Of a stretch of DNA of 64,000 nt, positions 2,468 to 15,625 are shown piece after piece (the stretch's first letter is position 1; each line of letters opens with the position of its first letter). The DNA lies in contig NZ_BJCC01000010.1 in assembly GCF_004309355.1 (NCBI RefSeq), forward strand, positions 124,001-188,000. Reading direction: 5' to 3'. The position numbers and the translations under genes are program-made. Under the pieces are notes generated by a model that was not told where the DNA came from, ran no database searches, and was given only the letters and a program-made list of their open reading frames with translations. This DNA is from Enterococcus florum (GTDB taxonomy: Bacteria > Bacillota > Bacilli > Lactobacillales > Enterococcaceae).

Positions 2468-2914
2468 ATGTCACTACTTACTACGTTGAACGAAGATATG
2501 AAACGCGCAATGAAAAGCAAGGACAAAGAAACCTTGCAGGTCATCCGCATGTTGAAGGCTTCGATTCAAAATGAACAGATCAATGCAGGTCACGAATTGA
2601 GCGGTGATGAAGAGTTAACAGTTTTGTCTCGTGAGATGAAACAACGCCGCGATTCACTAGCAGAGTTTGAAAAAGCTGGTCGTGACGATTTGACAGAAAA
2701 AGTCAAAAATGAAATCAAGATCGTGGAAACCTACATGCCTGCGCAGCTTTCCGAAGAGGAAATCCGCAGCATCGTCAAAGAAGCGATCGAAGCTACCGGC
2801 GCAACTTCACCAAAGGAATTTGGCAAGGTGATGGGGGCTGTGATGCCGAAGGTCAAAGGAAAAGCCGACGGAAATCAAGTCAATGCCATCGTCAAAGAGT
2901 TGCTGCAAGATTAA
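2468..2914 (+). CDS. yqeY: YqeY/GatB-like domain protein
   Basis: A 148-residue helical protein of the YqeY family, which shares its fold with the tRNA-binding tail of GatB and AspRS-associated proteins; its exact role is not settled. Family features are the N-terminal LNEDMKRAMKSKDKETLQVIRMLKA segment (positions 5-30 region), the YMPAQLSEEEI block and the GKVMGAVMPKVKGKADG motif near residue 120. A TTG lies one codon upstream, but ATG 2468 is better placed 7 bases after CAGGAG. It is cotranscribed with rpsU and ends in a terminator; phoH, its usual next neighbour, is 12.7 kb away. Confidence 0.92.
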   Translation: MSLLTTLNEDMKRAMKSKDKETLQVIRMLKASIQNEQINAGHELSGDEELTVLSREMKQRRDSLAEFEKAGRDDLTEKVKNEIKIVETYMPAQLSEEEIRSIVKEAIEATGATSPKEFGKVMGAVMPKVKGKADGNQVNAIVKELLQD

Positions 2915-2937
2915 TTCTAAAGAATGATCACTGAGGT

Positions 2938-2970
2938 CCAAGGAGAGTTTGCTTTCCTTGGGCTTTTTTG
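2938..2970 (+). terminator. Terminator after yqeY
   Basis: CCAAGG (2938-2943) pairs with CCTTGG (2956-2961), followed by GC and six T (2964-2969). Confidence 0.82.
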
Positions 2971-3244
2971 TGCATCTTAGAGGTTGCATAGTAAGCCGTT
3001 CTCTGATAAATGTCTTGTGTTTCTGACAATCAGCACTACAGAATACTGCAGGCACGAAAAATCCTGCAGTATGAATCTCGAATTGCCGAAGAAAATGATC
3101 AGGTAGATCAAACGTATTTGTTTTCTTGAAAGCATAATTATTGGACAAAAACAGCGGCGGGATTTCCCCAAAGGAAATTCCCATCGCTGTTTCTTTTAAT
3201 TTGTGCTGAAAAACATCTTCGTAAACACAGGTTAAGAAAATGCT
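2971..3244. other. Intergenic region with two strong hairpins
   Basis: No convincing gene in 274 bases. It holds a perfect 9-bp stem ATACTGCAG / CTGCAGTAT (3043-3051 / 3064-3072) and a long near-perfect stem (3149-3167 / 3173-3192, starting AAACAGCG and ending CGCTGTTT). The second is followed by T-rich sequence on both strands, so it can serve as a bidirectional terminator, including for the GntR gene ending at 3245. The rest could be a degraded gene or a small RNA. Confidence 0.5.
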
Positions 3245-3976
3245 CTACTTTTTAAACGTAACCTTAAAGGTAGAGATCAAGCCCTTATCACGAGCGATGG
3301 AGTACTCGATCGGATTATCTGAACTGTCAAAGGTGACAGTTTCTACTAGCTGCAGCGCATCGTTTTTTCTGATGTTTAAGATCTGAGCATCTTCACTAGA
3401 GCAATTGATTGCAGTGAATTTTTTTTCAGCATGAGAAATATCAATATTATAGGTTTCCCGCAAAATATCAAACAAGGAGATCTTTGAAAAGTCAAACTTG
3501 TCTAAATTTGACGCAATCGAAGTAGGAACATAGGTAGTCACAATTTCTGAAGGCTGGTTTTCGACGTACCGCAACCGTTCCAAATGATAAAAATGGGTAT
3601 ATTTATCTTTAAAAATGCGGCGAACAACCTCATCGCTCTCTACAATCTCGATCGATAAGACTTTTGTACTCGTCGAAAATTGTTTCTTTTGAGCAACATC
3701 ATTAAAACTGCGTAATTCCGAAACATCCCAAGAAAAGACCTCTCTTTTTCTGACAAACGTTCCTTTCCCGCGTCTCCTTTCAAGAAGACCATCATTCACT
3801 AACTGCTCAACAGCTTGGCGAATGGTCGTACGGCTCACATTATATTGATCGATTAGGGCGATTTCTGAAGGCAGTGCCTCTCCCTCTATATAGATTTCGT
3901 CTTTGATTTTCTTTTCAATGTCCTCTTTTACTTGAAAATACAAGGGAAGAGGACTGGTCTTGTCAATTGCTTCCAT
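3245..3976 (-). CDS. GntR/HutC-family transcriptional regulator (UTRA domain)
   Basis: A 243-residue repressor. Residues about 8-75 form the GntR winged helix (PLYFQVKEDIEKKI, then ALPSEIALIDQYNVSRTTIRQ); residues about 95-240 are a UTRA ligand-binding domain, usually binding a sugar phosphate. ATG at 3976 was chosen over upstream in-frame codons because AAAGGA lies 8 bases ahead of it. It is divergent from the polyol PTS operon and is the obvious regulator of it; candidate operators with TGACGT cores lie on both sides of the shared promoter. Confidence 0.88.
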   Translation of the reverse strand: MEAIDKTSPLPLYFQVKEDIEKKIKDEIYIEGEALPSEIALIDQYNVSRTTIRQAVEQLVNDGLLERRRGKGTFVRKREVFSWDVSELRSFNDVAQKKQFSTSTKVLSIEIVESDEVVRRIFKDKYTHFYHLERLRYVENQPSEIVTTYVPTSIASNLDKFDFSKISLFDILRETYNIDISHAEKKFTAINCSSEDAQILNIRKNDALQLVETVTFDSSDNPIEYSIARDKGLISTFKVTFKK

Positions 3977-4010
3977 ATCGTTATCCTTTCTTAGTATCGC
4001 TGTATTAATC

Positions 4011-4150
4011 ATGACGTCATTACCACTTAAGATGATATCAAAATTTGGTGTTAAAGGCAAAAATATTAAGAAATCTTGAAAAGAAAGCGTTGACAAATGC
4101 AACTATTTCTCTATAATACATATTATAACGATGTAGTGACGTAATGATGT
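4011..4150 (+). promoter_or_regulatory. Promoter, cre site and candidate GntR operators of the polyol operon
   Basis: Promoter TTGACA (4091-4096), 16-base spacer, TATAAT (4113-4118). A 14-of-15 match to the CcpA cre consensus spans 4082-4096 and covers the -35, which predicts glucose repression. ATGACGTCAT (4011-4020) is a perfect palindrome, and a related TGACGTAATGA element lies at 4138-4148, just after the start point; these two are the likely GntR operators. Operator assignment is inference. Confidence 0.65.
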
Positions 4151-4176
4151 CTCTATGTCAAAAGAGGAGGAAAACT

Positions 4177-4980
4177 ATGTGTGGAAAATGGCTTGATCTT
4201 TCGCAAAAGGTAATCGTAGTCACGGGAGGAAGTATGGGGATCGGCGAGAACATCGTTCGCAATTTACTGGATAACGGGGCCAAAGTAGTTATCGCTGATC
4301 TGGTGGAAAATGAGGAGCAGACGTCAAGTGACCGTGTTTTATTTATTCCTTGCGATATCACAAAAAAGGCAGATGCAGAGAAATGTATCGAGACGGCAGT
4401 GAATGAATTTGGACGTGTCGATGGGCTCGTCAACAATGCTGGGGCAAATCGTCCGAATCTTTTAGTGGATTATTATCATCAGAATCCTGAATTTGAAATG
4501 AGTGAAGAGGAATTGGATCTCATGTACCAGGTCAATCAAAAGGGGCTGTTTCTAATTTCTCAAGCAGCAGCACGGGAAATGATAAAGCAAAAAAGCGGTG
4601 TCATCGTCAATATCTCTTCGGAAGCTGGGATGGAAGGGTCCAAGGGTCAAAGTGGGTACTCAGCTACTAAAGGAGCGGTGAATTCCTTCACTCTCTCCTG
4701 GGCTAAGGAATTAGGTCAATTCAACATTCGGGTCATTGGTGTAGCGCCAGGTATCAACGAGCCGACTCCAATGGGTAATCAAAAGCACATGGAAAAGCTG
4801 GCTTATACGCGTGGAATTCAATCGAACGAAATCAAAGGTGATTATACCAAGATCATTCCTTTGGGTAGAATCGGGAGGCTTCAAGAAGTGGCTGATCTTG
4901 TTAGTTATTTGCAATCAGATCATTCATCGTATATCACTGGCACGATCATCAATGTTACAGGAGGAAAGTCACGAGGATAG
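4177..4980 (+). CDS. Short-chain dehydrogenase, sorbitol-6-phosphate 2-dehydrogenase-like
   Basis: A 267-residue SDR. It has the glycine-rich TGGSMGIGEN loop near residue 18, the NNAG motif, the catalytic Ser in NISSEAG, the YSATKGA catalytic Tyr-Lys pair, and a C-terminus ending GGKSRG. The FLISQAAAREM and SEAGMEGSKGQSGY stretches resemble bacterial sorbitol-6-phosphate 2-dehydrogenases, which oxidise the PTS product to fructose-6-phosphate with NAD+. ATG 4177 follows AGGAGG (4165-4170). It is the first gene of the PTS operon. The natural substrate could be another hexitol or pentitol phosphate. Confidence 0.82.
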   Translation: MCGKWLDLSQKVIVVTGGSMGIGENIVRNLLDNGAKVVIADLVENEEQTSSDRVLFIPCDITKKADAEKCIETAVNEFGRVDGLVNNAGANRPNLLVDYYHQNPEFEMSEEELDLMYQVNQKGLFLISQAAAREMIKQKSGVIVNISSEAGMEGSKGQSGYSATKGAVNSFTLSWAKELGQFNIRVIGVAPGINEPTPMGNQKHMEKLAYTRGIQSNEIKGDYTKIIPLGRIGRLQEVADLVSYLQSDHSSYITGTIINVTGGKSRG

Positions 4981-4992
4981 AAGGGGATGAAG

Positions 4993-5403
4993 ATGAAAAC
5001 AGCAATCGTATTAATGACACATGGACACTTTGGGGAAGAGCTGATTGCTTCGGGAGCACTTATTTTAGGTGAGCTGAAGGATGTCTTTTCGATTTCGTTA
5101 GAGGCTGAAAAGGAGCCAATGGAATTAATGACAGAATTGAAAACGCTTTTAGAAAAGGGCTTTGATCAGTATATTATTCTCGCAGATTTGTTTGGCGGTA
5201 CGCCTTGTAATGTGGCGACGCGATTTTCTTTAGAGGACCATGTGATCGTCTTGTCTGGTGTGAATTTACCGATGTTGATCGAGGCGGAAATGGCAAGAAT
5301 GCAGGGGGATTATGACGGGTTGACTGAGAAATTGATGAAAAGTGCGATGGAAGGGATCAAAGATGTAAAAACAATCATGCAAGAAAGGAAGGCAGAAAAA
5401 TGA
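4993..5403 (+). CDS. PTS mannose-family EIIA component
   Basis: A 136-residue cytoplasmic phosphocarrier. It begins MKTAIVLMTHGHFGEEL with the phosphorylatable His at residue 10, and contains the family's LADLFGGTPCNVA segment. It passes phosphate from HPr to the adjacent EIIB. ATG 4993 was chosen over ATG 4987 because GGGG (4983-4986) is 6 bases away from the former and touches the latter. The stop overlaps the EIIB start. EIIA and EIIB are separate genes here, as in Aga/Sor-type systems. Confidence 0.92.
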   Translation: MKTAIVLMTHGHFGEELIASGALILGELKDVFSISLEAEKEPMELMTELKTLLEKGFDQYIILADLFGGTPCNVATRFSLEDHVIVLSGVNLPMLIEAEMARMQGDYDGLTEKLMKSAMEGIKDVKTIMQERKAEK

Positions 5404-5891
5404 TGGAAGGAATTCGATTAGTACGGATTGATTTTCGATTGATCCATGGTCAGGTCATTACAAAGTGGAGCAAATTGACCGATGTGAAATCAATCATCGT
5501 CGTCAATGATGAATTAGCGGCTGATGAGTTTATGGCAGATATCTATGTGATCGCAGCACCACCGGGTATGCAGGTGGATGTGATCTCGAAGGAACAGTTC
5601 GTTCAAGGAGCAAAAGACGGAAAATTTGATTCTGGAAAAATCCTTGTTTTGTTTAAAAATATTGAGGATGCGCGAGAAGTAGTTGAGAAGGGAGTGACAT
5701 TTAAGCAGGTACAGGTTGGCGGACTAGGCAGCGGCAATGGCAGAACATCTGTTGTCAAAGGAATTTCTGTTGATAAAACAGACATCGCCAATTTAACTTT
5801 TGTTCAGGAGCAAGGTGCTGAGGTAACGTTCCAAGTTACACCGGAGGAACCAAAATTGAGCTTAGAAAAAGCAAGTAAGAAAGTGGGTTGA
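5400..5891 (+). CDS. PTS mannose-family EIIB component
   Basis: A 163-residue EIIB of the mannose/fructose/sorbose class. The motif VRIDFRLIHGQV places the phosphorylated His at residue 16; the FKNIEDAREVVEKG and VQVGGLGSG segments are family features. It receives phosphate from EIIA and gives it to the sugar during transport by EIIC/EIID. Its ATG overlaps the EIIA stop (ATGA), a sign of translational coupling. Confidence 0.92.
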   Translation: MMEGIRLVRIDFRLIHGQVITKWSKLTDVKSIIVVNDELAADEFMADIYVIAAPPGMQVDVISKEQFVQGAKDGKFDSGKILVLFKNIEDAREVVEKGVTFKQVQVGGLGSGNGRTSVVKGISVDKTDIANLTFVQEQGAEVTFQVTPEEPKLSLEKASKKVG

Positions 5892-5895
5892 GAGT

Positions 5896-6636
5896 ATGTT
5901 AGGGGTTAGTATTTTTACAGGTATTTATTATTGGATCATGAAAACTGACGTTGGATACGGTATCACACACGCAATACGGCAGCCTTTGTTTTCTGCACTA
6001 TTTATTGGGGTTATCATGGGCGACTTAAAGCAGGCCATCATCATTGGTGCGGCGGTTCAAATCCTTTATATTGGATTGGTCGCAGCTGGATCGAATCTAC
6101 CAGCTGATGATTGTTTAGCTGGCTTGATCGCTATTCCAATTGCTCTGCATTCTGGTTTGTCGACAGAGCTGGCGATTGCGATCGCTGTACCAGTGGGGGT
6201 AATGGGGGTATTTATTGATCAGCTGAGAAAGACGTTGAATGTTACGTTCGTTCACATGGCCGATCGTTATGCGGAAGAAGGAAACACGAGACAAATTATG
6301 CTGTGCAACAATGTGTATCCGACGATTTTGAACTTGATTCTTCGTTTCCCGATTCCGTTTTTAGCGAATTACTATGGAGCAGATGCTGTGAACAACTTTA
6401 TGGCAAGTGTCCCTGAGTGGCTGACACATGGTTTCTCTGTCGCAGGCGGCTTATTACCAGCATTAGGGTTTGCGTTGACGATGTTCGTTATCGGAAAAAA
6501 GGAACTGCTGCCATGGTTCTTCATCGGCTATTTCTTGATCCAGTTCAGCGGTATTCCAGTGCTGGGGGCGGCGATCTTCGGCTTATGTGCCATATTACTG
6601 ATTACGATGTATCAAAAAGCAAGTGTGGAGGGGTAA
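5896..6636 (+). CDS. PTS mannose-family EIIC permease
   Basis: A 246-residue membrane protein of the ManY/SorA type with about seven hydrophobic segments. The region near residues 35-75 (LFIGVIMGDLKQAIIIGAA, then QILYIGLVAAGSNLPAD) is characteristic of EIIC, which forms the sugar channel with EIID. It starts 5 bases after the EIIB stop. The substrate cannot be read from the sequence; neighbours point to a polyol. Confidence 0.92.
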   Translation: MLGVSIFTGIYYWIMKTDVGYGITHAIRQPLFSALFIGVIMGDLKQAIIIGAAVQILYIGLVAAGSNLPADDCLAGLIAIPIALHSGLSTELAIAIAVPVGVMGVFIDQLRKTLNVTFVHMADRYAEEGNTRQIMLCNNVYPTILNLILRFPIPFLANYYGADAVNNFMASVPEWLTHGFSVAGGLLPALGFALTMFVIGKKELLPWFFIGYFLIQFSGIPVLGAAIFGLCAILLITMYQKASVEG

Positions 6637-6640
6637 AAAA

Positions 6641-7456
6641 ATGGAAGAAAAATTAATCTCTGAAAAAGATGTCAGAAATGCTTGGCTGCGCTATTACATG
6701 TTTTGTGAAGTCGGAATTTCCTATGAACGCCTTCAAGCACTTAGCTTTTGCTATTCATTGATTCCCATCTTCAAAAAAATCTATCCTGACAAGGAAGACA
6801 TGAAGGCGGCATTACAGCGGCACCTCGTTTTTTACAATACGGAGGCTGTATTTGGATCTCCGATCAACGGGATCGTTATTGCACTGGAGGAACAAAAGGC
6901 GAAGGGGGAACCGATCGAAGATGATGCGATCACTGGTTTGAAGACTGGTTTGATGGGTCCATTAGCCGGAGTAGGTGATTCGATCGACTGGGCGACATTA
7001 AAACCGATTATTTTCGCATTGGGTGCCAGCCTGTCTGCCAGCGGGAATCCCATTGGAGCCTTTGTTCTCTTGCTGCTTCCAATCATTCAAATTGCTATCG
7101 GCACACAATTATCTGTCTATGGCTATAAAATGGGGCGTGCATCAATTCGCGAGATCCTGAGTTCAGGTCGAATCAAGGAATTGATCAATGGTGCCAGTAC
7201 GTTGGGGCTGTTTATGATGGGGGCACTTTCCTCGAATTATGTCGCATTGAGTTCGCCGTTGAAGTTTACGTTTGGAAAGGGCAATGATCCGTTTGTCGTA
7301 CAAAATATTATCGATAGTATCGTCCCAGGCCTACTTCCGCTGTTAGCTGTGTTAGGGATTTACTGGTGGTTGAATAAGAAAAATCAAAACATGGTGGCGA
7401 TCATGCTGATCATCTTAGCGATCTCATTGGTTGGGGCAATTACCGGCATACTTTAA
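6641..7456 (+). CDS. PTS mannose-family EIID permease
   Basis: A 271-residue partner of EIIC. It starts with a cytoplasmic stretch (VRNAWLRYYMFCEVGISYERLQ) and has the EIID signature TGLMGPLAGVGDSIDW near residue 110, then C-terminal membrane segments. ATG 6641 follows GGAGGGG (6628-6633) by 7 bases; an in-frame ATG 18 bases earlier lies inside the EIIC end and has no SD. Confidence 0.92.
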   Translation: MEEKLISEKDVRNAWLRYYMFCEVGISYERLQALSFCYSLIPIFKKIYPDKEDMKAALQRHLVFYNTEAVFGSPINGIVIALEEQKAKGEPIEDDAITGLKTGLMGPLAGVGDSIDWATLKPIIFALGASLSASGNPIGAFVLLLLPIIQIAIGTQLSVYGYKMGRASIREILSSGRIKELINGASTLGLFMMGALSSNYVALSSPLKFTFGKGNDPFVVQNIIDSIVPGLLPLLAVLGIYWWLNKKNQNMVAIMLIILAISLVGAITGIL

Positions 7457-7475
7457 TAAAGAGGGGTAAGCAATT

Positions 7476-8639
7476 ATGAAGGCAGTGCATTTTGGTGCGG
7501 GCAGTATCGGCAGAGGCTTCATTGCCGATTTACTGCATGATTCCGGCTATGAGATTACATTGGTAGATGTCAACGCACAACTGAATAAGCAAATCAACCA
7601 GACACATTCCTATCATCTTTATGTAATTGAAGAAAAGTATCAGGAAAAAACGATTGACCGAGTGAAGGCGCTATCTCCTGTAGACGAGGCGGCTGAGGTG
7701 ATCCAAGAAATTGTTTCGGCGAATATTCTCACGACCGCTGTTTGGGCAGACAACTTGCCAAAGGTAGCACCGATGATTTCGGAAGGGTTACACCAACGTT
7801 TCTTGCAATCGAAGGAAAGAATCAATGTTTTGGCTTGTGAGAATGCAATGTTCAACAGTGAAATTTTGAAAAAGGAGATCTTGAAGCTGGGACAATTGAC
7901 TGAAGACCAGTTAGAGCAGGTCGCGACCTTTCCGAATACTGCTGTGGATCGAATGGTGCTGGAAGATGAGCGAGCAGGTGAAAAAGTGATCAACATCGGT
8001 GTAGACTTTGAATTAGTGATCGAACGCACTAAATTGGCCGATCCAACAAGTTTACCGATCAAAGGTACAGAATATACGGATCATTTGGTGAAATACATTG
8101 AGCGCAAACTTTATATCATCAATTGCGGGCATGCATGGTCTGGCTATATGGGTGCAATCAAAGGCTATACGCTCATGTCAGATATCTTTGCAGACGAACA
8201 ACTGGTAGAGGCAACTCGAGAAGTCATGGGTGAATCCGCCGATTTACTAGCAAAAAAATATGGATTCACGAAAGAGGACTTGGACAGCTATATTGATTTT
8301 GCGATTCGCCGCTTCCAAACGCCGGGAGTAGTAGACACGGTTTCCCGTGTCTGCCGCTCGCCAATTCGTAAGCTGGAGCCGAATGAACGATTGGTTGGGC
8401 CTGCTAATCAATGTGAGGAAAATCAGTTGAAAAATGATCACCTGCTGGAAGGGATCGCGGCTGTGTTTCTTTTTGATGATTCTGAAGATCAGCAGTCAAA
8501 AGAGTTGCTGGCTTACGTTGAGGAACATGGGATTTCCGATGCAGTATCTCATTATACTGAATTGCCGCCAGAAGGTTCCATGCATCAAGCGATCGTACAA
8601 AAGTACCAACAATTACAAAAGCAAAAGGGTGAACGCTGA
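7476..8639 (+). CDS. mtlD: Mannitol-1-phosphate 5-dehydrogenase family protein
   Basis: A 387-residue polyol-phosphate dehydrogenase of the long-chain mannitol dehydrogenase family. The N-terminus MKAVHFGAGSIGRGFI is the NAD-binding loop; the conserved TFPNTAVDRMV (residue ~150), KLYIINCGHAWSGY (catalytic region, ~210) and SRVCRSPIRKL segments are present. MtlD oxidises mannitol-1-phosphate to fructose-6-phosphate. No mannitol-type EIICBA is nearby; it sits in a mannose-type PTS operon with a second, unrelated polyol-phosphate dehydrogenase, so its substrate may be a different hexitol phosphate. SD GAGGGG precedes the ATG. Confidence 0.87.
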   Translation: MKAVHFGAGSIGRGFIADLLHDSGYEITLVDVNAQLNKQINQTHSYHLYVIEEKYQEKTIDRVKALSPVDEAAEVIQEIVSANILTTAVWADNLPKVAPMISEGLHQRFLQSKERINVLACENAMFNSEILKKEILKLGQLTEDQLEQVATFPNTAVDRMVLEDERAGEKVINIGVDFELVIERTKLADPTSLPIKGTEYTDHLVKYIERKLYIINCGHAWSGYMGAIKGYTLMSDIFADEQLVEATREVMGESADLLAKKYGFTKEDLDSYIDFAIRRFQTPGVVDTVSRVCRSPIRKLEPNERLVGPANQCEENQLKNDHLLEGIAAVFLFDDSEDQQSKELLAYVEEHGISDAVSHYTELPPEGSMHQAIVQKYQQLQKQKGER

Positions 8640-9280
8640 TGGAACAGTCATTTACGAATGAAGACGGATTGTCTGTAGTGGTGAAGGTCATCGAGACGAT
8701 CAAATCCAATCGGGAATATTTGAGTGAAGTTGATAGTGTTGGTGGTGATGGGGATCATGGGATCAATATGAGCAAGGGCTTCACCATGGCAGAAAAAGAG
8801 ATAGAGAATCAGGGACAGATCAACATGAGCGAGGGATTTAAGATCATCAGCGGTGTGCTGGTCAATAAAATCGGGGGTTCGATGGGTCCGTTGTATGGCA
8901 GCTTCTTTCGCGGGTTGAGTGTGGCTTCAAGAAAACAAGCAGCGATTACCAAAGAAGTTTTCGGGGCGATGCTGGAAAAGGCCTATCAAAATATTGCTAT
9001 GCTGACAGAAGCGAAGATCGGTGATAAAACCTTGATGGATGTGCTGATACCAGCTGTAGAGACGTATCAAGCGCAGGAGTCAGCGAGCAGCTTTGAGGAG
9101 TGTCTGGAGGAAATGCAGCGGGCTGCAAAAGCTGGACTGGAATCAACCAAACAGATGGCCGCAAAAGTCGGTCGGGCAAGTCGAATCGGTGACCGCTCTC
9201 TAGGACACCAGGATGCTGGAGCGACCTCATGTTATTTGATACTGGAGGCTTTAGCAGAAGGAACGAAGAACTTACTTTAA
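8639..9280 (+). CDS. dhaL: DhaL-type kinase subunit, copy 1
   Basis: A 213-residue DAK2 (DhaL) domain protein, the nucleotide-binding half of dihydroxyacetone kinase. The three Asp ligands of the Mg-nucleotide are seen in EVDSVGGDGDHG (D32, D37, D39, followed by His). Later motifs GGSMGPLYGSFFRG and IGDRSLGHQDAGATS fit the family. In PTS-type Dha kinases DhaL holds bound ADP that DhaM rephosphorylates; there is no DhaM in the window, so ATP may be used directly. The start overlaps the mtlD stop, and dhaK follows after 13 bases. Confidence 0.88.
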   Translation: MEQSFTNEDGLSVVVKVIETIKSNREYLSEVDSVGGDGDHGINMSKGFTMAEKEIENQGQINMSEGFKIISGVLVNKIGGSMGPLYGSFFRGLSVASRKQAAITKEVFGAMLEKAYQNIAMLTEAKIGDKTLMDVLIPAVETYQAQESASSFEECLEEMQRAAKAGLESTKQMAAKVGRASRIGDRSLGHQDAGATSCYLILEALAEGTKNLL

Positions 9281-9293
9281 AGGAGGAGATTTT

Positions 9294-10289
9294 GTGCAGC
9301 GTTTTGTGAATGATCCGGATTTCGTCGTTGAGGACATGTTAAAGGGCTTTGTTTTGGCAAATCCTGAGGTCGAACTAGCAAAGGCCAATGATCGTGTTGT
9401 AGTGAAAAAGCAAAAACAAAACGGAAAAGTCGGTGTCATCACCGGCGGAGGCAGTGGTCATGAGCCAGCCTTTCTCGGCTATGTGGGGGAAGGAATGCTG
9501 GATGCGGTAGCGATTGGTGAAGTCTTTGCTTCTCCTCCTGCTCAAGCCTTTTATGACGCGATGCTTGAAGCAGATACGGGTGCAGGTGTCGCTTGCCTAT
9601 TCGGAAATTATGCTGGAGACAACATGAATGTAAAAATGGCGATCAAAATGGCAGAAGATGATGAGGTCGAAGTCAAGTATGTGGTTGCAACGGATGATGT
9701 TGCGTCTTCGCCAAAAGAAACCAAAGAAAAGCGTCATGGCATTGCCGGCGGCTATTTTATGTGGAAGGTCGGCGGGGCTAAAGCAGCAGCCGGCGGTACT
9801 TTGGATGAAGTGATCGCAGTTGCTCAAAAAGTGGTTGATCGGACTCGCAGTATTTGTGTCGGCTTGGAGCCGTGCATGATTCCGGCAGTCGGCAAACCGA
9901 ATTTTGAGATCGAAGCAGGAACGATGGAATTTGGGATTGGTCACCATGGAGAAACTGGGATTCGAAAGGAAGAGCTGAAAAAGGCAGATGCCATCGCAGA
10001 AGAAATGGTGAGCACGCTACTAGAGGATTTTGCCTTTGAGGATGGGCGGGAGCTTTCGGTCATGCTCTCTGGATTGGGCAGTACGATGCTGATGGAGCAG
10101 TACATCCTGGTCGGAAAAGTCTTGGAGATCTTGAAGGAAAAGGGGCACACTATTCATAAGGTCTACGTTGGAGACTTTGTGACCTCGCTGGATATGTCAG
10201 GTGCTTCTTTGACGTTCATTGACTTAGATGAAGAGATCAAGGAATTGATGGATATGTCAGGTCGTCCTGTGGGGATGAAGAATTACTAA
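9294..10289 (+). CDS. dhaK: DhaK-type kinase subunit, copy 1
   Basis: A 331-residue dihydroxyacetone-binding subunit. The GGGSGHEP motif carries His56, NYAGDN carries Asp109, and GHHGETG carries His218, which in DhaK forms the covalent hemiaminal with the ketone substrate; numbering coincides with E. coli DhaK. All active residues are kept, so a triose or short ketose substrate is expected. GTG start at 9294, with AGGAGG (9281-9286) 7 bases ahead. It works with the DhaL just upstream. The order L-K is reversed relative to the second pair (K-L). Confidence 0.9.
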   Translation: MQRFVNDPDFVVEDMLKGFVLANPEVELAKANDRVVVKKQKQNGKVGVITGGGSGHEPAFLGYVGEGMLDAVAIGEVFASPPAQAFYDAMLEADTGAGVACLFGNYAGDNMNVKMAIKMAEDDEVEVKYVVATDDVASSPKETKEKRHGIAGGYFMWKVGGAKAAAGGTLDEVIAVAQKVVDRTRSICVGLEPCMIPAVGKPNFEIEAGTMEFGIGHHGETGIRKEELKKADAIAEEMVSTLLEDFAFEDGRELSVMLSGLGSTMLMEQYILVGKVLEILKEKGHTIHKVYVGDFVTSLDMSGASLTFIDLDEEIKELMDMSGRPVGMKNY

Positions 10290-10314
10290 AGAATACAGTT
10301 GAGGAGCGTAAGAA

Positions 10315-10962
10315 ATGAAATTACAGTTAGCATTGGACGAACACAAATTAGAGGATGCATTGGAATTTGCAGAGCAGGTAGCGGAGTATATAGACATCAT
10401 TGAGATCGGTACCCCTTTTGTCATTGATTCTGGCATGGAGGCGGTACGTCGTTTCAAAGAAAAATTTCCTGAAAAAGAAATTTTATCAGACGAAAAAATC
10501 ATGGATGGCGGTTATTATGAGTCGCAGCTAGGATTTGAAGCGGGAGCAGAATATGTAACGGCATTAGGCGTTAGTGATTTGGTAACCATCAAAGGCTGTA
10601 TTAAAGCAGCCAATGATTTCAAGAAGCAAACTGTGGTAGACATGATCTGTGTCGAGGATATGCCGAAACGAATTGAGGAGTTGGAAGAGATCGGTGCACA
10701 TGTTTTGGCTGTTCATACCGGTGCAGATGTACAGGTGTTAGGCCGTACTCCGCTAGATGATCTAAAAGTAATGACCAAACATGCGAAAAAAGCCAAAATC
10801 GCCGTCGCAGGTGGGATCAATAGTCAAACTATCCAAAAATATGTGGAGTTAAACCCAGATATCATTATCGTTGGAACTGGAATCACGCGGGCGGAAAATC
10901 CAGTTGAGGAAGCTCGCTTGATTCGTAATGCGATCGATGAACATAAGAAGGCAGGGAAATAA
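10315..10962 (+). CDS. hxlA: 3-hexulose-6-phosphate synthase (HPS-like)
   Basis: A 215-residue TIM-barrel protein of the OMP decarboxylase superfamily, HPS/KGPDC branch. MKLQLALDEH and IDIIEIGTPFVI open the barrel; the metal and catalytic D-x-K-x-x-D motif is present as SDEKIMD (D59, K61, D64); VAGGIN and IIVGTGIT form the phosphate site. HPS joins formaldehyde and ribulose-5-phosphate to D-arabino-3-hexulose-6-phosphate, or the reverse. E60 and the GGYY after the motif differ from typical HPS (DLKTMDA), so a related aldol substrate is possible. The isomerase partner follows directly, which favours HPS over keto-gulonate-phosphate decarboxylase. Confidence 0.83.
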   Translation: MKLQLALDEHKLEDALEFAEQVAEYIDIIEIGTPFVIDSGMEAVRRFKEKFPEKEILSDEKIMDGGYYESQLGFEAGAEYVTALGVSDLVTIKGCIKAANDFKKQTVVDMICVEDMPKRIEELEEIGAHVLAVHTGADVQVLGRTPLDDLKVMTKHAKKAKIAVAGGINSQTIQKYVELNPDIIIVGTGITRAENPVEEARLIRNAIDEHKKAGK

Positions 10963-10963
10963 G

Positions 10964-11524
10964 ATGGCTGAATGTAAAAACTTGCTGGCGATCATTGAAG
11001 AGCTGGCTCAGGATGCAAAACAAGTGGACAATGATCAATTAGCCAAAATCGAGGAGCTGATCCTGCAGGCGAAGCGTGTGTTTATTGTTGGTGCGGGCCG
11101 TTCTGGCTTTGCTGCTCGTGCGTTTTCGAACCGTCTGATGCATTTAGGTTTTGATTCAAACTTTGTGGGGGAACCTACGACACCGTCTATTCGAAAGGGT
11201 GATTTGCTGATCGTTGGTTCTGGATCTGGAAAAACGGAAAGCTTGGTCACGATGGCGAAGAAAGCCAAAAGTGAAGGTGCATTGCTGGCGACGGTCACGA
11301 TCCATCCTGAAAACACGATCGGTTCGATGGCAGATGCCCATATTCGAATCCCAGGAATCTCTTCTCGTGATGAAGCGGTAGAAAAGGCCCCCTCTGTTCA
11401 ACCAAATGGATCTTCTTTTGAACAGTTGTCCTGGTTGGTCTATGACAGCATGATCGTGGACTTGAAAAAGGCGACGAAGCAGGAACAAGAAGATATGGAT
11501 TACCGTCACGCAAATATGGAATAA
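10964..11524 (+). CDS. hxlB: 6-phospho-3-hexuloisomerase (PHI)
   Basis: A 186-residue SIS-domain protein. FIVGAGRSGFAARAFSNRL (about residues 38-56), the VGEPTTP segment, IVGSGSGKTESL and the C-terminal YRHANME tail match PHI closely (B. subtilis HxlB ends HHANLE). PHI interconverts 3-hexulose-6-phosphate and fructose-6-phosphate. ATG 10964 begins one base after the hxlA stop, with AGGGA as SD; in-frame upstream codons lie inside hxlA and have no SD. A strong terminator follows. Confidence 0.9.
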   Translation: MAECKNLLAIIEELAQDAKQVDNDQLAKIEELILQAKRVFIVGAGRSGFAARAFSNRLMHLGFDSNFVGEPTTPSIRKGDLLIVGSGSGKTESLVTMAKKAKSEGALLATVTIHPENTIGSMADAHIRIPGISSRDEAVEKAPSVQPNGSSFEQLSWLVYDSMIVDLKKATKQEQEDMDYRHANME

Positions 11525-11530
11525 CGTTTG

Positions 11531-11569
11531 AAAACAGTGACCGGATTTTTGAGCTCGGTCACTGTTTTT
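11531..11569 (+). terminator. Strong terminator between hxlB and the second dhaK
   Basis: AAAACAGTGACCG (11531-11543) pairs with CGGTCACTGTTTT (11556-11568), then T. It would end the first operon, yet only about 60 bases separate it from the next gene and I see no good promoter there; dhaK copy 2 may depend on readthrough. Confidence 0.85.
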
Positions 11570-11594
11570 CATTTTATCCATGAGTATCTATGAA

Positions 11595-11632
11595 AGGAGA
11601 CAGCACCTAAAAGAGTGCTAAAAACAATGATG
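11595..11632 (+). promoter_or_regulatory. SD separated from the dhaK start by a small hairpin
   Basis: AGGAG (11595-11599) is 27-30 bases from the ATG codons at 11627/11630, too far for normal initiation. Between them AGCAC (11602-11606) and GTGCT (11615-11619) form a 5-bp hairpin; if it folds, the effective spacing becomes about 9-12 bases. Stem and positions are direct observations; the effect on initiation is inference. Confidence 0.5.
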
Positions 11633-12640
11633 AAAAAAATTATGAATGCTCCTGAGAACTATGTCACAGAAATGCTGGAAGGAATTTATACGGCCCATGC
11701 GGATATGGTCGCATTTACCGGAGACGATCTGCATTGTTACGTATCCAAAGTTAAAAAAGCAGGTAAAGTCGGCCTTGCTACAGGAGGTGGGTCGGGCCAT
11801 TTGCCCTTGTTTTTAGGCTATGTTGGTGAAGGAATGCTGGATGGCTGCACGATCGGCGATGTTTTTCAATCGCCTAGTCCAGAGCAAATGTACAATGTTA
11901 CCAAAGAAATCGATTCGGGATCAGGTGTTCTATACATTTACGGAAACTATAACGGGGATATTTTCAATTTTGATATGGCCGCAGAAATGGCGGACTTTGA
12001 AGACGGGATCGAAGTGAAAAGCGTGGTGGCTGGGGATGATGTCGCAACGGAAAAACCGGCTTCACCAGACGAAAAAAATAAGCGTCGCGGAGTGGCGGGC
12101 ATCTTCTTTGTTTACAAATGTGCTGGAGCAGCTGCAGATGCGATGTTGAATCTTGATGAAGTAAAACGTGTAGCTGATAAGGCTGCCGCTAACGTTCGGA
12201 CGATGGGCGTTGCGCTCACTCCGTGTATCGTTCCACGTGTTGGAAAAGCCGGCTTTACGATCGAAGAAAACCAAATGGAGATCGGGATGGGTATCCATGG
12301 AGAAACCGGGTTCCGTCGTGGACCGTTAGAGCCCGCAGATGTGATCGTTGATGAATTGCTGGAGAAAATCTTAGCAGATATTCCTTATGTCAAAGGAAAT
12401 GAGGTAGCGGTTTTAGTCAATGGATTAGGGGCTACTCCTTTGGATGAACAATATATCGTGGTTCGCAGGGTCAATGCGCGTCTTAAAGCAGCTGGTATTT
12501 CGGTTCACAGGTATTACGTTGGTGAATATGCAACAGCTTTAGAAATGGCTGGTTTTTCTATTTCATTGTTGAAACTAGATGAGGAACTTAAGAAATACAT
12601 TGATGGACCAGTAAACACGCCCTTCTTCAAACAATTTTAA
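11630..12640 (+). CDS. dhaK: DhaK-type kinase subunit, copy 2 (divergent)
   Basis: A 336-residue DhaK homologue starting MKKIMNAPENYV; ATG 11627 is the alternative start. It keeps the substrate His (GIHGETG, H223), the catalytic Asp (NYNGD, D110) and the His of the glycine loop (H57), but that loop reads GGGSGHLP instead of GGGSGHEP. It differs from copy 1 throughout, so it is not a recent duplication. Probably a kinase for a related ketose (triulose or tetrulose); the substrate is not known. It forms a pair with the downstream DhaL copy 2. Confidence 0.85.
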   Translation: MKKIMNAPENYVTEMLEGIYTAHADMVAFTGDDLHCYVSKVKKAGKVGLATGGGSGHLPLFLGYVGEGMLDGCTIGDVFQSPSPEQMYNVTKEIDSGSGVLYIYGNYNGDIFNFDMAAEMADFEDGIEVKSVVAGDDVATEKPASPDEKNKRRGVAGIFFVYKCAGAAADAMLNLDEVKRVADKAAANVRTMGVALTPCIVPRVGKAGFTIEENQMEIGMGIHGETGFRRGPLEPADVIVDELLEKILADIPYVKGNEVAVLVNGLGATPLDEQYIVVRRVNARLKAAGISVHRYYVGEYATALEMAGFSISLLKLDEELKKYIDGPVNTPFFKQF

Positions 12641-12659
12641 TATAAAGCAGGTGAGCGAA

Positions 12660-13301
12660 ATGGATCGGTTGTTTATTATCGACTATCTGAACGAATTATC
12701 TACCATAATGAAGGAAAAGCAAGAGTATCTGATCGAACTCGATAGCGTGGTCGGAGATGGTGATCTTGGATTAACGATGAGTGATGGCTTCGAGGCAGCT
12801 TTTGAGGCAATCAAAACATCAGAAGAAAATGACTTGGGCAGATTATTGTTCACTGCTGGAAAAGCAATGTCCTCTGCCGTGCCTTCTACGATGGGCACCC
12901 TGATGGCCTCGGGATTCATGCAGGCTGGAAAAGCTTTTAAGGGCAAGGACGTTATTGAAGCGAAAGAGATTGTTGATTTGCTGCGAGCCTATGCAGAAGG
13001 AGTCATGCATAGGGGAAAAGCACAGCCCGGTGAAAAAACTTTTATTGATGGTCTTATGCCAGCTATAAAGAAAATGGATGAAGCCTTTGCCCAGGGCCTT
13101 GATGCTTTTACAGCTGCTAAAAAAGGCGTAAGTGGAGCTGTAGAGGGATACGATCGTACTGCAGGTATGCTTGCTGTACACGGACGGGCAGCCACTCGCG
13201 GAGAAGCGTCAAGAACATTAAAAGACCCTGGAGCAGCGGTTGCTGTTTTGATGATCACTGCCCTTGAAAAGAGTACGAGAAATTTTAACCATAAGAAATA
13301 G
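12660..13301 (+). CDS. dhaL: DhaL-type kinase subunit, copy 2
   Basis: A 213-residue DAK2-domain protein. The nucleotide-site Asp residues are in ELDSVVGDGDLG (D28, D33, D35); the position after the third Asp is Leu, where copy 1 and E. coli DhaL have His. PSTMGTLMASGFMQAG and GEKTFIDGLMPA are further family motifs. ATG 12660 lies 5 bases after AGGTGA (12649-12654); an in-frame GTG at 12651 lies inside the SD. It follows dhaK copy 2 by 19 bases, so the two are one unit. Confidence 0.87.
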   Translation: MDRLFIIDYLNELSTIMKEKQEYLIELDSVVGDGDLGLTMSDGFEAAFEAIKTSEENDLGRLLFTAGKAMSSAVPSTMGTLMASGFMQAGKAFKGKDVIEAKEIVDLLRAYAEGVMHRGKAQPGEKTFIDGLMPAIKKMDEAFAQGLDAFTAAKKGVSGAVEGYDRTAGMLAVHGRAATRGEASRTLKDPGAAVAVLMITALEKSTRNFNHKK

Positions 13302-13303
13302 GC

Positions 13304-13393
13304 CCCTTCTCACTTTTAGAAGGGAAAGTGTCATTGATAATTTAGAGAATGCAGCAGGTGTAAGATTTCGAAACAGAAGTCTTGCACTTTTTT
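13304..13393 (+). terminator. Two hairpins after dhaL copy 2
   Basis: CCCTTCT (13304-13310) / AGAAGGG (13318-13324), without a T-run, is followed by GTGTAAGA (13358-13365) / TCTTGCAC (13380-13387) with six T (13388-13393). The second is the likely terminator of the operon. Confidence 0.7.
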
Positions 13394-13688
13394 GATAGAG
13401 TTTTGCTTTTACTGAAGGTATCCTGAGGTTCTTTACGATGGGCATTGCAGCTTAAATGAATATCTAGTTCTTCTAGAGGTAATGTCTGAGGTCCAAGCCA
13501 CTTTCTATCGCAGTTCGAATGCTGTTTAGCACAACTGCGTGGTTGGAACAAACAAGGAACATTTTGCTGTTCCTCATAATAGGTCATCAATCGATATTCT
13601 AAACTTTCTCTTTTCATGGTAAATAAGTGTCGTTGTTTAAGTTGTTTCAATTTCAGTATTTTTTACGGTGCACAACGTGTATGGTTTT
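13394..13688. other. Unassigned stretch between dhaL and mapZ
   Basis: No recognised gene. A minus-strand frame from ATG at 13617 (about 91 residues, Cys/His-rich, starting MKRESLEYRLMTYYEEQQN) is open down to 13342, but its end would run through the dhaL terminator, it has no clear SD and I recognise no family. It may be a gene remnant or chance. Confidence 0.3.
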
Positions 13689-13731
13689 ATAATAAAAGGA
13701 AGAGGCTATGACAGTGATGTCACAGTCTCTT
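13689..13731 (-). terminator. Terminator of mapZ
   Basis: A 14-bp arm from 13700 (AAGAGGCTATGACA) pairs, with two mismatches, with TGTCACAGTCTCTT ending at 13731. On the minus strand the stem is followed by CCTTTTATTAT, just after the mapZ stop. Confidence 0.78.
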
Positions 13732-13735
13732 CCAA

Positions 13736-15181
13736 TCAATGGCCGCCATTGCCTTGAAACCATCCGGTCTTACAGTTGATGGTTACTAAGTACATCGGCA
13801 GATCTGAAGCACTGTATCCGCTGGTCAGAGGAGCTCGATTGCTGGTCGCATACAGGTTGTAATAGCCTTCACCATTAATGATCTGCACAGGCTCTAAGGA
13901 ATAGCCGCCCTCTACGATATACCCTCGGTCAATACAGGTTTGGATCACTTTTGACTGAATGCCAGCGTTCCAGGTCCAAGCAGGATTGCTCGCATCGTTG
14001 ATCTGCCCTTGGTCTTGGTTAAGGATCGGCAGATTTTGACGATTGGTTTGAAAAAGCGGGGTCTGTCGAGCTTGTTCGGCTGCTTGCGCCTCTTTTTCAG
14101 TCAACGCTTGCTCGACCTTGGTCAACTCTTGCTTTTGTGGTTCTACCAGTGCCTGATTGGCAACGGCTGCTACCGCGGTTTTGGCTGCATCATATTGTTC
14201 TCTTGTTGCTGACTCGGTCAACGTTTCTTCAGACAACAGCTGTTCAGTCATTTGTTTGGCGATCTCAAGTTTTGCTCGTTGCTCCTTTGCTGTGGTGATG
14301 GCTTGATTCATCAGCTGATTGAAGCTTTGATCCGCCGTATTAGCGGTTAGTAAGATCGCTTGATCAGATTTCAGCTGGAGGCTGTCGGCCAAGGCATCCC
14401 CTTGAATAGCAGGCGCAGTGAAGAGTTGATTGACTGATTGGGTCAGCTTTTGTTTTTCGACCAGACGATCATAAGCCGATTGAAGCTGGGTGTATGCCTG
14501 ATGGTCTTTATGGTCCTCGATCAACTTTTTCAGATCAGTCGTATCCTTCTCAAGGGCTTCTGGTTTAAGAAAGGTTTGCTGCTTGTCTGTATAAAAATCA
14601 GCGATCGCTGACTTGACCTGCTTAACCTGCTGATTTTCTTTTTTAGCAAGTTCAATTTCTTTGGCCTCTGCTTGTTTAACGGAGTAATATTGGTAACCGC
14701 TCCACACACAAAAGATTAAAACAGCGACAAGGGCAAAGTAACGTAACTTATGGGACGAGTGTCTAGGTTTTGACGATCCTGCATTGGTTGAAGGCTCGGA
14801 TTCATTTTCGAGAGGGGGTTCCTCCGGCTCTTTATTCACTTCCGGAGGTTTAGGTTCCTCTTCGACTTTTTCCTCCGGAGAATCATCGGCTTTTTGTGAC
14901 AGATCGATCTCAATTGGCTTGGGTTTCGGGTCAGGGGTGGCTTCTTCTTTATGTTCACGAATATACTCTGCCAAGATGGGATTGGTTTCCTCTTTTGAAT
15001 CTTCTTCTTCGATGTCCTTTGAATGCTGCTCAAAATGTTGTTCGACTTCTTCGATCGTCATTTGAGCGAGCTCAGACCATTCGATGTCTTTCTGCGAGTG
15101 ATCAGTCGTTAAGGAAAACCCACAGCTGAGACAGATAGCCAATCGTTCATCCAATTCGGCTTGGCAATTTGGACATTTCAC
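13736..15181 (-). CDS. mapZ: MapZ-family cell-division site protein
   Basis: A 481-residue bitopic membrane protein. Residues 3-20 form a zinc ribbon (CPNC...CLSC); then an acidic, Pro/Glu-rich cytoplasmic stretch to about 145; one membrane segment (YFALVAVLIFCVWSGYQYY, about 148-166); an extracellular helical Gln/Ala/Glu-rich region; and a C-terminal domain with GYYNLYATSNRAPL and LVTINCKTGWFQGNGGH, which resembles the MapZ C-terminal domain of streptococci and enterococci. MapZ marks the division site and positions FtsZ rings. GTG start, with AAAGGAG about 12 bases ahead. The zinc ribbon at the N-terminus is an addition relative to pneumococcal MapZ. Confidence 0.78.
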   Translation of the reverse strand: MKCPNCQAELDERLAICLSCGFSLTTDHSQKDIEWSELAQMTIEEVEQHFEQHSKDIEEEDSKEETNPILAEYIREHKEEATPDPKPKPIEIDLSQKADDSPEEKVEEEPKPPEVNKEPEEPPLENESEPSTNAGSSKPRHSSHKLRYFALVAVLIFCVWSGYQYYSVKQAEAKEIELAKKENQQVKQVKSAIADFYTDKQQTFLKPEALEKDTTDLKKLIEDHKDHQAYTQLQSAYDRLVEKQKLTQSVNQLFTAPAIQGDALADSLQLKSDQAILLTANTADQSFNQLMNQAITTAKEQRAKLEIAKQMTEQLLSEETLTESATREQYDAAKTAVAAVANQALVEPQKQELTKVEQALTEKEAQAAEQARQTPLFQTNRQNLPILNQDQGQINDASNPAWTWNAGIQSKVIQTCIDRGYIVEGGYSLEPVQIINGEGYYNLYATSNRAPLTSGYSASDLPMYLVTINCKTGWFQGNGGH

Positions 15182-15561
15182 TATAAAAATCGGCTCCTTT
15201 GTTTTATTATATGGACCTCTAGTTTTTCAATCTATCATATTTTTTTGTTATTTCCAAACGATTAACGGATGTTTTAGAAAGTTAATTTTTAGTGGTTGAA
15301 ATATGATTGTATAGAGATTAAGATTTGGTTTGATTTAACTAATTTAATAGTTTGAATTTGTATCATGTGTTTTATTATCCATTTTTCATAATCAGTCTTT
15401 TGATAAATGCTTGTTTTTTAAAATCAACTGTCGTCCGATAATACATAAAGGGTAGAACAGGCATCATTATCAGAAAGAGCATTTATGAAATGATTTTTTT
15501 TCTGAAGAAGGTTTTTCTTTTTCGTCTCTTTTAGTTCTTTCTTAAGCTGAAAGAGTGAGAA
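15182..15561. other. AT-rich intergenic region between mapZ and phoH
   Basis: About 380 bases of AT-rich sequence carrying the divergent upstream regions of mapZ and phoH. I see no ORF with an SD, no strong hairpin and no RNA gene. Confidence 0.55.
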
Positions 15562-15590
15562 TTTTGCTTTTATTTAGAGTGTGGTATGAT
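15562..15590 (+). promoter_or_regulatory. Extended -10 promoter of the phoH operon
   Basis: TGGTATGAT (15582-15590) is an extended -10, with TTTTGC (15562-15567) at 17-base spacing as a weak -35. The predicted leader is about 30 bases. Confidence 0.6.
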
Positions 15591-15625
15591 AGGGTAGATG
15601 CTTAGAATGAGGAGATGAACGATTT

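Follow-up and report, generated by a model that had tools for sequence, protein, structure and literature searches.

A conserved hexitol-type operon of Enterococcus florum with a probable reverse ribulose-monophosphate module and a non-standard DhaK

The hexitol operons mtl (mtlA-mtlR-mtlF-mtlD), srl/gut and sor combine genes for a phosphotransferase system (PTS) with a dehydrogenase gene. The same logic is seen in an operon of Enterococcus florum that lies in a stretch of 64,000 nucleotides of contig NZ_BJCC01000010.1 (positions 124,001 to 188,000; hereafter the window) and that also includes genes for a 3-hexulose-6-phosphate synthase (HPS), a 6-phospho-3-hexuloisomerase (PHI) and a DhaK-DhaL kinase (DhaLK). 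To our knowledge, HPS, PHI and DhaKL are absent from the known mtl and srl operons, and a mannose-type PTS together with both a short-chain dehydrogenase/reductase (SDR) and MtlD is unusual. The nearest arrangement in print is the mannitol operon SUB0285-0289 of Streptococcus uberis 0140J, with genes for a mannitol PTS, a 'ribulose-phosphate 3-epimerase', PHI and MtlD (PMC2657157). It resembles the E. florum operon in having the mannitol PTS, MtlD and PHI in one operon, and differs in that one gene is annotated as Rpe rather than HPS (possibly a mis-naming) and that the five genes do not include DhaKL. No pathway is proposed for these genes in the accessible part of that paper. The initial annotation of the window had regarded the gene set as a pathway not yet described, and no description of it was found in the open-access literature searched. 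Here, the set is shown to be real and conserved, and to consist of a hexitol-type operon, a probable reverse ribulose-monophosphate (RuMP) module and a non-standard DhaK.

Profile scans identified all of the genes first noted, namely a mannose-type PTS, SDR, MtlD, hxlA-hxlB and two DhaK-DhaL pairs. The twelve genes are intact and on the forward strand, at the positions given here. The first (4177..4980) encodes an SDR of the sorbitol-6-phosphate 2-dehydrogenase type that passes the NF004817 subunit model (383.9 bits; cut-off 304). It is followed by genes for enzymes IIA (4987..5403), IIB (5400..5891), IIC (5896..6636) and IID (6641..7456) of the mannose PTS family, all homologues that score below the curated cut-offs. 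MtlD (7476..8639) includes both Pfam mannitol dehydrogenase domains and scores 330.7 bits with NF002652, under the cut-off of 356. DhaL1, the phosphoryl-transfer subunit (8639..9280), passes TIGR02365 (171.8 bits; cut-off 138.3), and DhaK1, the ketose-binding subunit (9294..10289), has a Dak1 domain, belongs to the GHHGE subfamily described below and falls under TIGR02363 (347.3 bits; cut-off 406.25). HPS (10315..10962; TIGR03128, 268.7 bits, cut-off 200) and PHI (10964..11524; TIGR03127, 220.4 bits, cut-off 160) both pass. Further downstream, DhaK2 (11630..12640; 11633-12637 used in searches) is also under TIGR02363 (376.6 bits against 406.25) and DhaL2 (12651..13301) just under TIGR02365 (134.9 bits against 138.3). 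A profile scan of the operon genes found no dhaM, as had been noted initially. Since enzyme II genes and hexitol-phosphate dehydrogenase genes stand in one operon (EIIA to EIID with an SDR over its cut-off and a member of the MtlD family), this is a PTS operon of the hexitol type. From what is known of these families, its substrate would be a hexitol and its product fructose 6-phosphate (F6P), and it is likely a hexitol operon with a working HPS-PHI pair.

The genes from SDR to PHI (4177-11524) form a tight operon, with spacings of -4 to 25 bases. The initial annotation had taken 4177-13301 as one regulated unit and had counted both DhaKL pairs as part of the set; neither point was supported. 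A terminator-like hairpin (11530..11569, forward strand; 15 pairs and a T run, -20.5 kcal/mol, z -5.5) lies 3' of PHI, in the gap before DhaK2, which is 108 bases long with the start at 11633 and 105 with the ATG at 11630. None of 200 shuffled sequences gave an equally good hairpin; it is absent from the list produced by a consensus scan, probably because that scan admits loops of up to 8 and this one has 10. Because DhaK2-DhaL2 lies beyond this hairpin and was not seen with any of the eight further copies of the set, it is placed outside the conserved core.

HPS was searched for in 105 genomes of the family, 398 of the phylum and 395 of the order (some genomes recur), in genome contigs (13 loci) and in plasmids. 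Neighbourhoods were fetched for the places listed in the family search at 53% identity or more, for three more at 56-63% from the phylum and order searches, for some of lower identity, and for one of six enterobacterial plasmid records at ~57%. Neighbouring genes were labelled by BLAST against the proteins of the window and its relatives. With the window included, 35 HPS places of at least 50% identity were scored, two of them (L042 and L078) on short contigs.

A PTS and MtlD are joined to DhaL-DhaK-HPS-PHI in nine operons from at least four genera (the window, L035, L036, L050 and L052-L056), and the combination of a hexitol-type PTS operon, F6P-forming dehydrogenases, HPS-PHI and a DhaKL-type kinase recognised initially is therefore a conserved set. 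The search of other genomes suggested at that stage recovered the order SDR-EIIA-EIIB-EIIC-EIID-MtlD-DhaL-DhaK-HPS-PHI in L035 and L050, a variant with MtlD a few genes upstream in L036, and five relatives in which the PTS is of the mannitol type (L052-L056). Eight of the nine operons have DhaLK in the slot from MtlD to HPS, and the remaining one has it after EIID and before HPS. One of the five mannitol-type operons, L054, was scanned: its MtlA scores below the cut-offs of the mannitol PTS models that it matches, its EIIA hits fructose/mannitol models, and a 663-aa 'MtlR' without an NCBIfam match was named by position and length.

MtlD is found within 8.5 kb of 16 of the 35 HPS genes (14 loci; L057 and L058 have two HPS genes each), and a DhaK of the DhaK1 type adjoins nine of these 16, versus none of the 19 HPS genes without MtlD. 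No p-value is attached to this comparison because related loci are not independent draws. The 19 comprise ten in ManA-like triads, three beside a galactitol-type PTS, one beside an ascorbate-type PTS and five others (L038, L039, L042, L077 and L090), of which L077 has a mannose-type EIID. The triad, ManA-like cupin protein-PHI-HPS, is conserved at its ten places (L049, L059-L065, L067 and L078), with PHI 36-41% identical to that of the window. At L040, L041 and L066, an HPS of the same clade has no PHI nearby and belongs to a galactitol-type PTS cluster with Rpe and a GatD-like dehydrogenase. On the Salmonella enterica plasmid CP053577.1 (L090), genes for a glucose-type PTS EIIBC and an unnamed protein are followed by hxlB-hxlA, with an SgrR-like regulator.

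The HPS and PHI of the operon look canonical by sequence, and the corresponding activities are predicted. In an alignment with 3ajx and 3f4w, the HPS active-site columns (LALD, IIE, SDEKIMD, VVDM, VHTG and VAGG) are as in known HPS and unlike those of 3-keto-L-gulonate-6-phosphate decarboxylase; the catalytic roles are those we take these residues to have. The Glu of the SDEKIMD column is present in the window, L035, L048, L050, L052-L056 and L076, at a position that is not constant within the family. Among solved proteins, HPS is closest to 3f4w, a 'putative hexulose 6 phosphate synthase' (256.6 bits), and PHI matches the solved YckF (1m3s; 146.4 bits). HPS shares 42-46% identity with unnamed copies from its class and phylum and 46% with copies on staphylococcal plasmids. 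A reading of HPS as the decarboxylase (UlaD/SgbH) was rejected, as the scores are 128.4 bits against a cut-off of 250 and 99 against 294 and the motif columns differ. Cleavage of some other ketose phosphate by the HPS-like enzyme, as suggested initially, is likewise disfavoured because its catalytic residues are canonical.

DhaK1 is of a less ordinary kind. In a tree of 53 distinct DhaK-like sequences from the examined loci, in which some branches outside the clade described here, among them those of DhaK2 and the fused copy of L092, are long, the motifs GHHGE and NYAGD[NT]MNVKM occur together in 12 sequences and not in the other 41. The 12, which include DhaK1, form one clade (support 100/100), and the nine HPS-linked DhaKs form a subclade within it (100/98). 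DhaK1 retains His56, Asp109 and His218, which are invariant in the DhaK alignment and presumably catalytic, and carries substitutions beside them: Gly for Lys104, Asn110, Val113, Lys114 and His217. Across the clade, Lys104 is replaced by Gly, Ile110 by Asn or Thr, Phe113 by Val, the acidic residue 114 by Lys and Ile217 by His. The solved DhaK enzymes with Lys104 we take to be those of Escherichia coli and Lactococcus lactis. Gly is also found at position 104 in DhaK2 and in the DhaK on contig C22 of the same genome, and Lys in the DhaK on contig C8. DhaK2 is of the GIHGE type and 49% identical to the C22 DhaK. Seven of the other eleven clade members were scanned with TIGR02363 and all fall under the cut-off (334.6-365 bits), as does the C22 DhaK (368.7), while the glp-linked C8 DhaK (L069), included as a control, passes with 507 bits. 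DhaK1 itself was found in 2 of the 398 phylum genomes at E 1e-100, the window's own counted, and no relatives were detected in viral contigs by the search made.

Three members of the clade lie outside HPS operons. L083 has RpiB-DhaK-DhaL with ABC transporter genes. L091, on a Rhizobium plasmid with an incomplete gene table, has an ABC transporter, a threitol dehydrogenase that passes the GolD/DthD model (399.1 bits against 286), DhaK-DhaL and a second dhaL. L092, on an Aureimonas plasmid, has an ABC transporter, a dehydrogenase annotated as GolD/DthD, DhaK-DhaL, a regulator-DhaK fusion and DhaL. Given its TIGR02363 score, 'dihydroxyacetone kinase' is an unsafe name for DhaK1, and the failed cut-off alone leaves dihydroxyacetone (DHA) as a possible substrate. 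The initial expectation that the kinase acts on DHA or another short ketose needs a shift of weight: because DhaK1 is by its sequence not an ordinary DHA kinase, the probability of another short ketose is no lower than that of DHA, and DHA is a possible but somewhat doubtful substrate of DhaL1-DhaK1.

The genome holds a second hexitol-type operon, L048 (mtlA-mtlR-mtlF-mtlD-HPS-PHI), which lacks DhaLK. The 187-base gap between its mtlD and HPS encodes a 28-residue stretch that matches the C-terminus of the L054 DhaK (22/28 residues, E 2.6e-12) and the window DhaK1 (14/27 residues, E 1.1e-7). Therefore, a DhaK formerly occupied that slot of the mtl operon; no convincing DhaL remnant was found in the gap (best E 0.08). 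A second PHI-like gene (43-46%) lies divergent beside mtlA in L048 (15831-16403, forward strand) and also in L052-L056, and a third MtlD-like gene (32%) is found near a contig end at C7:247-1356 (reverse strand). Elsewhere, the genome encodes transketolases (one 679-aa frame and two shorter N-terminal frames, on C22 and C15, with the other half adjacent to the former), three phosphoketolases and a broken fragment, a fructose-6-phosphate aldolase (FSA) outside the operon, one ordinary phosphofructokinase, and DhaM at C8 and C22. An operon on C22 (L070; C22:104500-124400) encodes RpiB, FSA, triosephosphate isomerase, DhaM, DhaK, DhaL and a transketolase in two halves, along with two small probable membrane proteins between DhaM and DhaK; we take it to resemble the gol operon of Listeria.

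We tentatively propose, with slightly less than even confidence, that the operon serves a hexitol (sorbitol and/or mannitol), is linked to a GntR regulator and carries an accessory module that takes the hexitol through F6P to ribulose 5-phosphate and formaldehyde, with DhaLK recovering a ketose. The PTS would import and phosphorylate the hexitol, and the SDR and MtlD would oxidise sorbitol 6-phosphate and mannitol 1-phosphate, respectively, to F6P. Part of the F6P would be converted by PHI to hex-3-ulose 6-phosphate, which HPS would split to ribulose 5-phosphate and formaldehyde, the RuMP reactions run backwards. Ribulose 5-phosphate could then enter the pentose phosphate and phosphoketolase routes. 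Formaldehyde would be caught in a short ketose, most simply DHA formed from xylulose 5-phosphate by a transketolase, and DhaL1-DhaK1 would phosphorylate this ketose, returning its carbon to glycolysis. The F6P-splitting direction of HPS-PHI is mildly favoured; formaldehyde as the link, the kinase substrate and the phosphoryl donor are what we infer. Phosphoenolpyruvate as donor through an operon-encoded DhaM was rejected, as the operon has no DhaM and the DhaM genes are at C8 and C22. FSA inside the module as a source of DHA was also rejected; the gene that follows PHI in L054 (217 aa) is similar to HAD phosphatases and not to FSA. In its fullest form, the route would be a carbon shuttle around phosphofructokinase and aldolase, with ribulose 5-phosphate converted to xylulose 5-phosphate, which with formaldehyde would give glyceraldehyde 3-phosphate and DHA by transketolase, and DHA converted to dihydroxyacetone phosphate by DhaLK. 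The net conversion would be of F6P and a phosphoryl donor to the two triose phosphates, with PHI, HPS and a dedicated kinase from the operon and the remainder from housekeeping enzymes (Rpe, transketolase). This complete shuttle we consider quite unlikely.

The proposal is supported by the recurrence of the core in nine operons whose PTS belong to two unrelated types, by the occurrence of DhaLK at MtlD-linked HPS genes (9/16 vs 0/19), by the DhaK remnant in L048, by HPS and PHI that pass their curated cut-offs with the catalytic HPS columns kept, and by transketolases, FSA and three phosphoketolases in the genome. It is also supported by L057 and L058, whose mtl-HPS-PHI operons lack DhaLK but have another possible formaldehyde sink, an iron alcohol dehydrogenase after PHI, the L058 copy being 97% identical to that of L057. 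Among solved proteins, the L057 enzyme is closest to an alcohol dehydrogenase 2 (377.9 bits), with an NAD methanol dehydrogenase almost level (376.4 bits), and NCBIfam places it among lactaldehyde-reductase-like enzymes, below cut-offs. Either DhaLK or this dehydrogenase could act as a formaldehyde sink. A reverse RuMP route has been proposed for pentose supply in archaea, in the accessible part of PMC5241800. Transketolase A of E. coli is reported to use formaldehyde in a two-carbon transfer that gives DHA (PMC3905653, accessible part), and engineered E. coli has been given a DHA synthase that, with the native DHA kinase, handles formaldehyde carbon (PMC9871363, accessible part).

Several observations weigh against it. 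Both transketolases of Bacillus methanolicus that were tested lacked DHA synthase activity, according to the accessible part of PMC3905653. DhaK1 is below the DhaK cut-off and lacks Lys104, and its sister genes stand beside threitol dehydrogenase or RpiB, neighbours that point to a tetrulose rather than DHA. The HPS clade also occurs in ManA-like, galactitol-type and ascorbate-type PTS settings, so membership of it implies no single reaction direction. DhaLK is missing beside seven of the 16 MtlD-linked HPS genes; among these, L076 shows no other sink in view, L048 has none in cis and L037 offers only a zinc dehydrogenase-like gene with a weak match (63.5 bits against 450). The genome has other DHA kinases, and with an ordinary phosphofructokinase present no bypass of glycolysis is needed.

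The best-surviving alternative, which we still regard as unlikely, is that DhaL1-DhaK1 is a kinase of a tetrulose, erythrulose. The tetrulose would come from formaldehyde and DHA by a side reaction of an aldolase or transketolase, or from HPS cutting hex-3-ulose 6-phosphate at C4-C5 to erythrulose and glycolaldehyde phosphate. The well-supported clade of 12 that unites DhaK1 with DhaKs beside threitol dehydrogenase (L091, L092) or RpiB (L083) is consistent with this, as are the changes at residues 104, 110, 113, 114 and 217 adjoining the catalytic ones, and further kinase genes lie nearby, a second DhaKL pair in L092 and a second dhaL in L091. However, the operon encodes neither RpiB nor a tetrulose-phosphate isomerase, and the shifted cleavage site lacks sequence support given the ordinary catalytic columns of HPS. 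Moreover, the HPS-linked DhaKs group among themselves in the tree, so that the substrate specificity of the sister group may not extend to them, and the erythrulose activity of the rhizobial kinases is itself deduced from a neighbouring gene.

HPS and PHI are best known as formaldehyde scavengers, and their reaction favours F6P. The pair could run forwards in fixing or detoxifying formaldehyde, co-induced with hexitols, while DhaLK takes DHA from glycerol or another source, and at L080 a related HPS-PHI pair lies a few kb from RpiB-, Rpe- and PfkB-like genes. As the operon holds no recognised formaldehyde-producing gene and its adjacent regulator is GntR, and as the restriction of DhaLK to MtlD-linked loci (9/16 vs 0/19) would go unexplained, this explanation is judged improbable. 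That HPS-PHI instead provides nucleotide synthesis with ribulose 5-phosphate and, through transfer of formaldehyde to tetrahydrofolate, with one-carbon units, DhaLK being a separate passenger, has a precedent in the archaeal proposal for pentoses (PMC5241800, accessible part) but is very improbable, since the genome has transketolases to supply pentoses, DhaLK keeps its place next to HPS, after MtlD in 8/9 operons and after EIID in the ninth, and a DhaK stump marks the same slot of the genome's own mtl operon.

Upstream of the operon, a divergent gene (3245..3979, reverse strand) encodes a GntR-family (HutC-like) regulator, the probable operon repressor, which matches GntR models at up to 140.4 bits with no model over its cut-off among the 25 matches listed. 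Homologues (43-66% identity) are divergent at the same position in L035, L036 and L050. A palindrome, ATGACGTCAT (4009..4022), is a candidate GntR operator, and the same motif is found upstream of SDR in L035 (6 matches, a count that none of 100 shuffles reached) and L050 (7 matches, of which 6 are upstream of SDR; none of 200 shuffles reached this count). Its count is not above chance in the window (21 of 100 shuffles) or, with two mismatches allowed, in L036 (22 of 100). A candidate promoter TTGACA-16-TATAAT (4090..4117, forward strand) agrees with the consensus at 12 of 12 positions and is the sole such site among 22 promoter-like sites in 11.1 kb, where 18.4 are expected. One loose pattern gave no match to a cre-like site near the operon.

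The operon lies between yqeY and phoH (window 2914-15626), and this region was compared in nine other genomes of the genus, out of 19 found. The two genes are 0.15-0.7 kb apart in six (L146-L151) and separated by ~5.7 kb of other DNA in three (L143-L145); in L145 this DNA encodes a GH1 glycosidase, a PTS EIIC and a PRD regulator, and L143 and L144 hold DNA of like length. As the operon is at this site in none of the nine, the simplest reading is that it was inserted at a site whose content varies. The G+C content per kb is 0.39-0.49 over 3001-13000 and 0.36-0.48 in the flanks. A gene for a MapZ-domain protein (13736-15181, reverse strand) lies between DhaL2 and phoH; no match to it was found in the corresponding region of the nine relatives.

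If the proposed pathway is correct, some Firmicutes would produce and recapture formaldehyde while consuming ordinary sugar alcohols. RuMP enzymes would then have a catabolic role beyond methylotrophy, detoxification and archaeal pentose supply, and a DhaK subfamily so far without a function would gain one.

In comparison with known systems, the operon pair shares canonical HPS and PHI residues with hxlA-hxlB of methylotrophs and Bacillus, and differs in being part of a hexitol-type operon, fed by F6P-forming enzymes. In the accessible part of a sourdough study, HPS and PHI appear only in a gene inventory (PMC9472446). No HPS, PHI or DhaKL is named in the arabitol operon BMMGA3_RS07325-RS07360 of B. 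methanolicus, in the accessible part of PMC6685057, where RS07365 is unnamed. With DhaKLM, the kinase has in common the DhaK family, His56, Asp109 and His218, and a DhaL1 over its cut-off; unlike that system, it has no DhaM in its operon, and its DhaK1 is under the DhaK cut-off and without Lys104. The kinases of the tetritol pathways of Mycobacterium smegmatis are DhaK-type erythrulose kinases. The likeness to these pathways is the threitol dehydrogenase beside the sister genes of DhaK1, and the difference is the lack of a tetritol dehydrogenase and RpiB-type isomerase in the operon. The tetritol pathway is mentioned in PMC10733421 and PMC12780249, and the erythrulose cycle in the former is a synthetic design, as far as the accessible parts of these papers go. 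In the DHA operon L070, DhaKL is likewise joined to pentose-phosphate enzymes, although its DhaK belongs to another clade and no HPS, PHI or hexitol genes were seen there. Of the nine operons, L052-L056 resemble classical mtl operons into which the core has been inserted behind mtlD.

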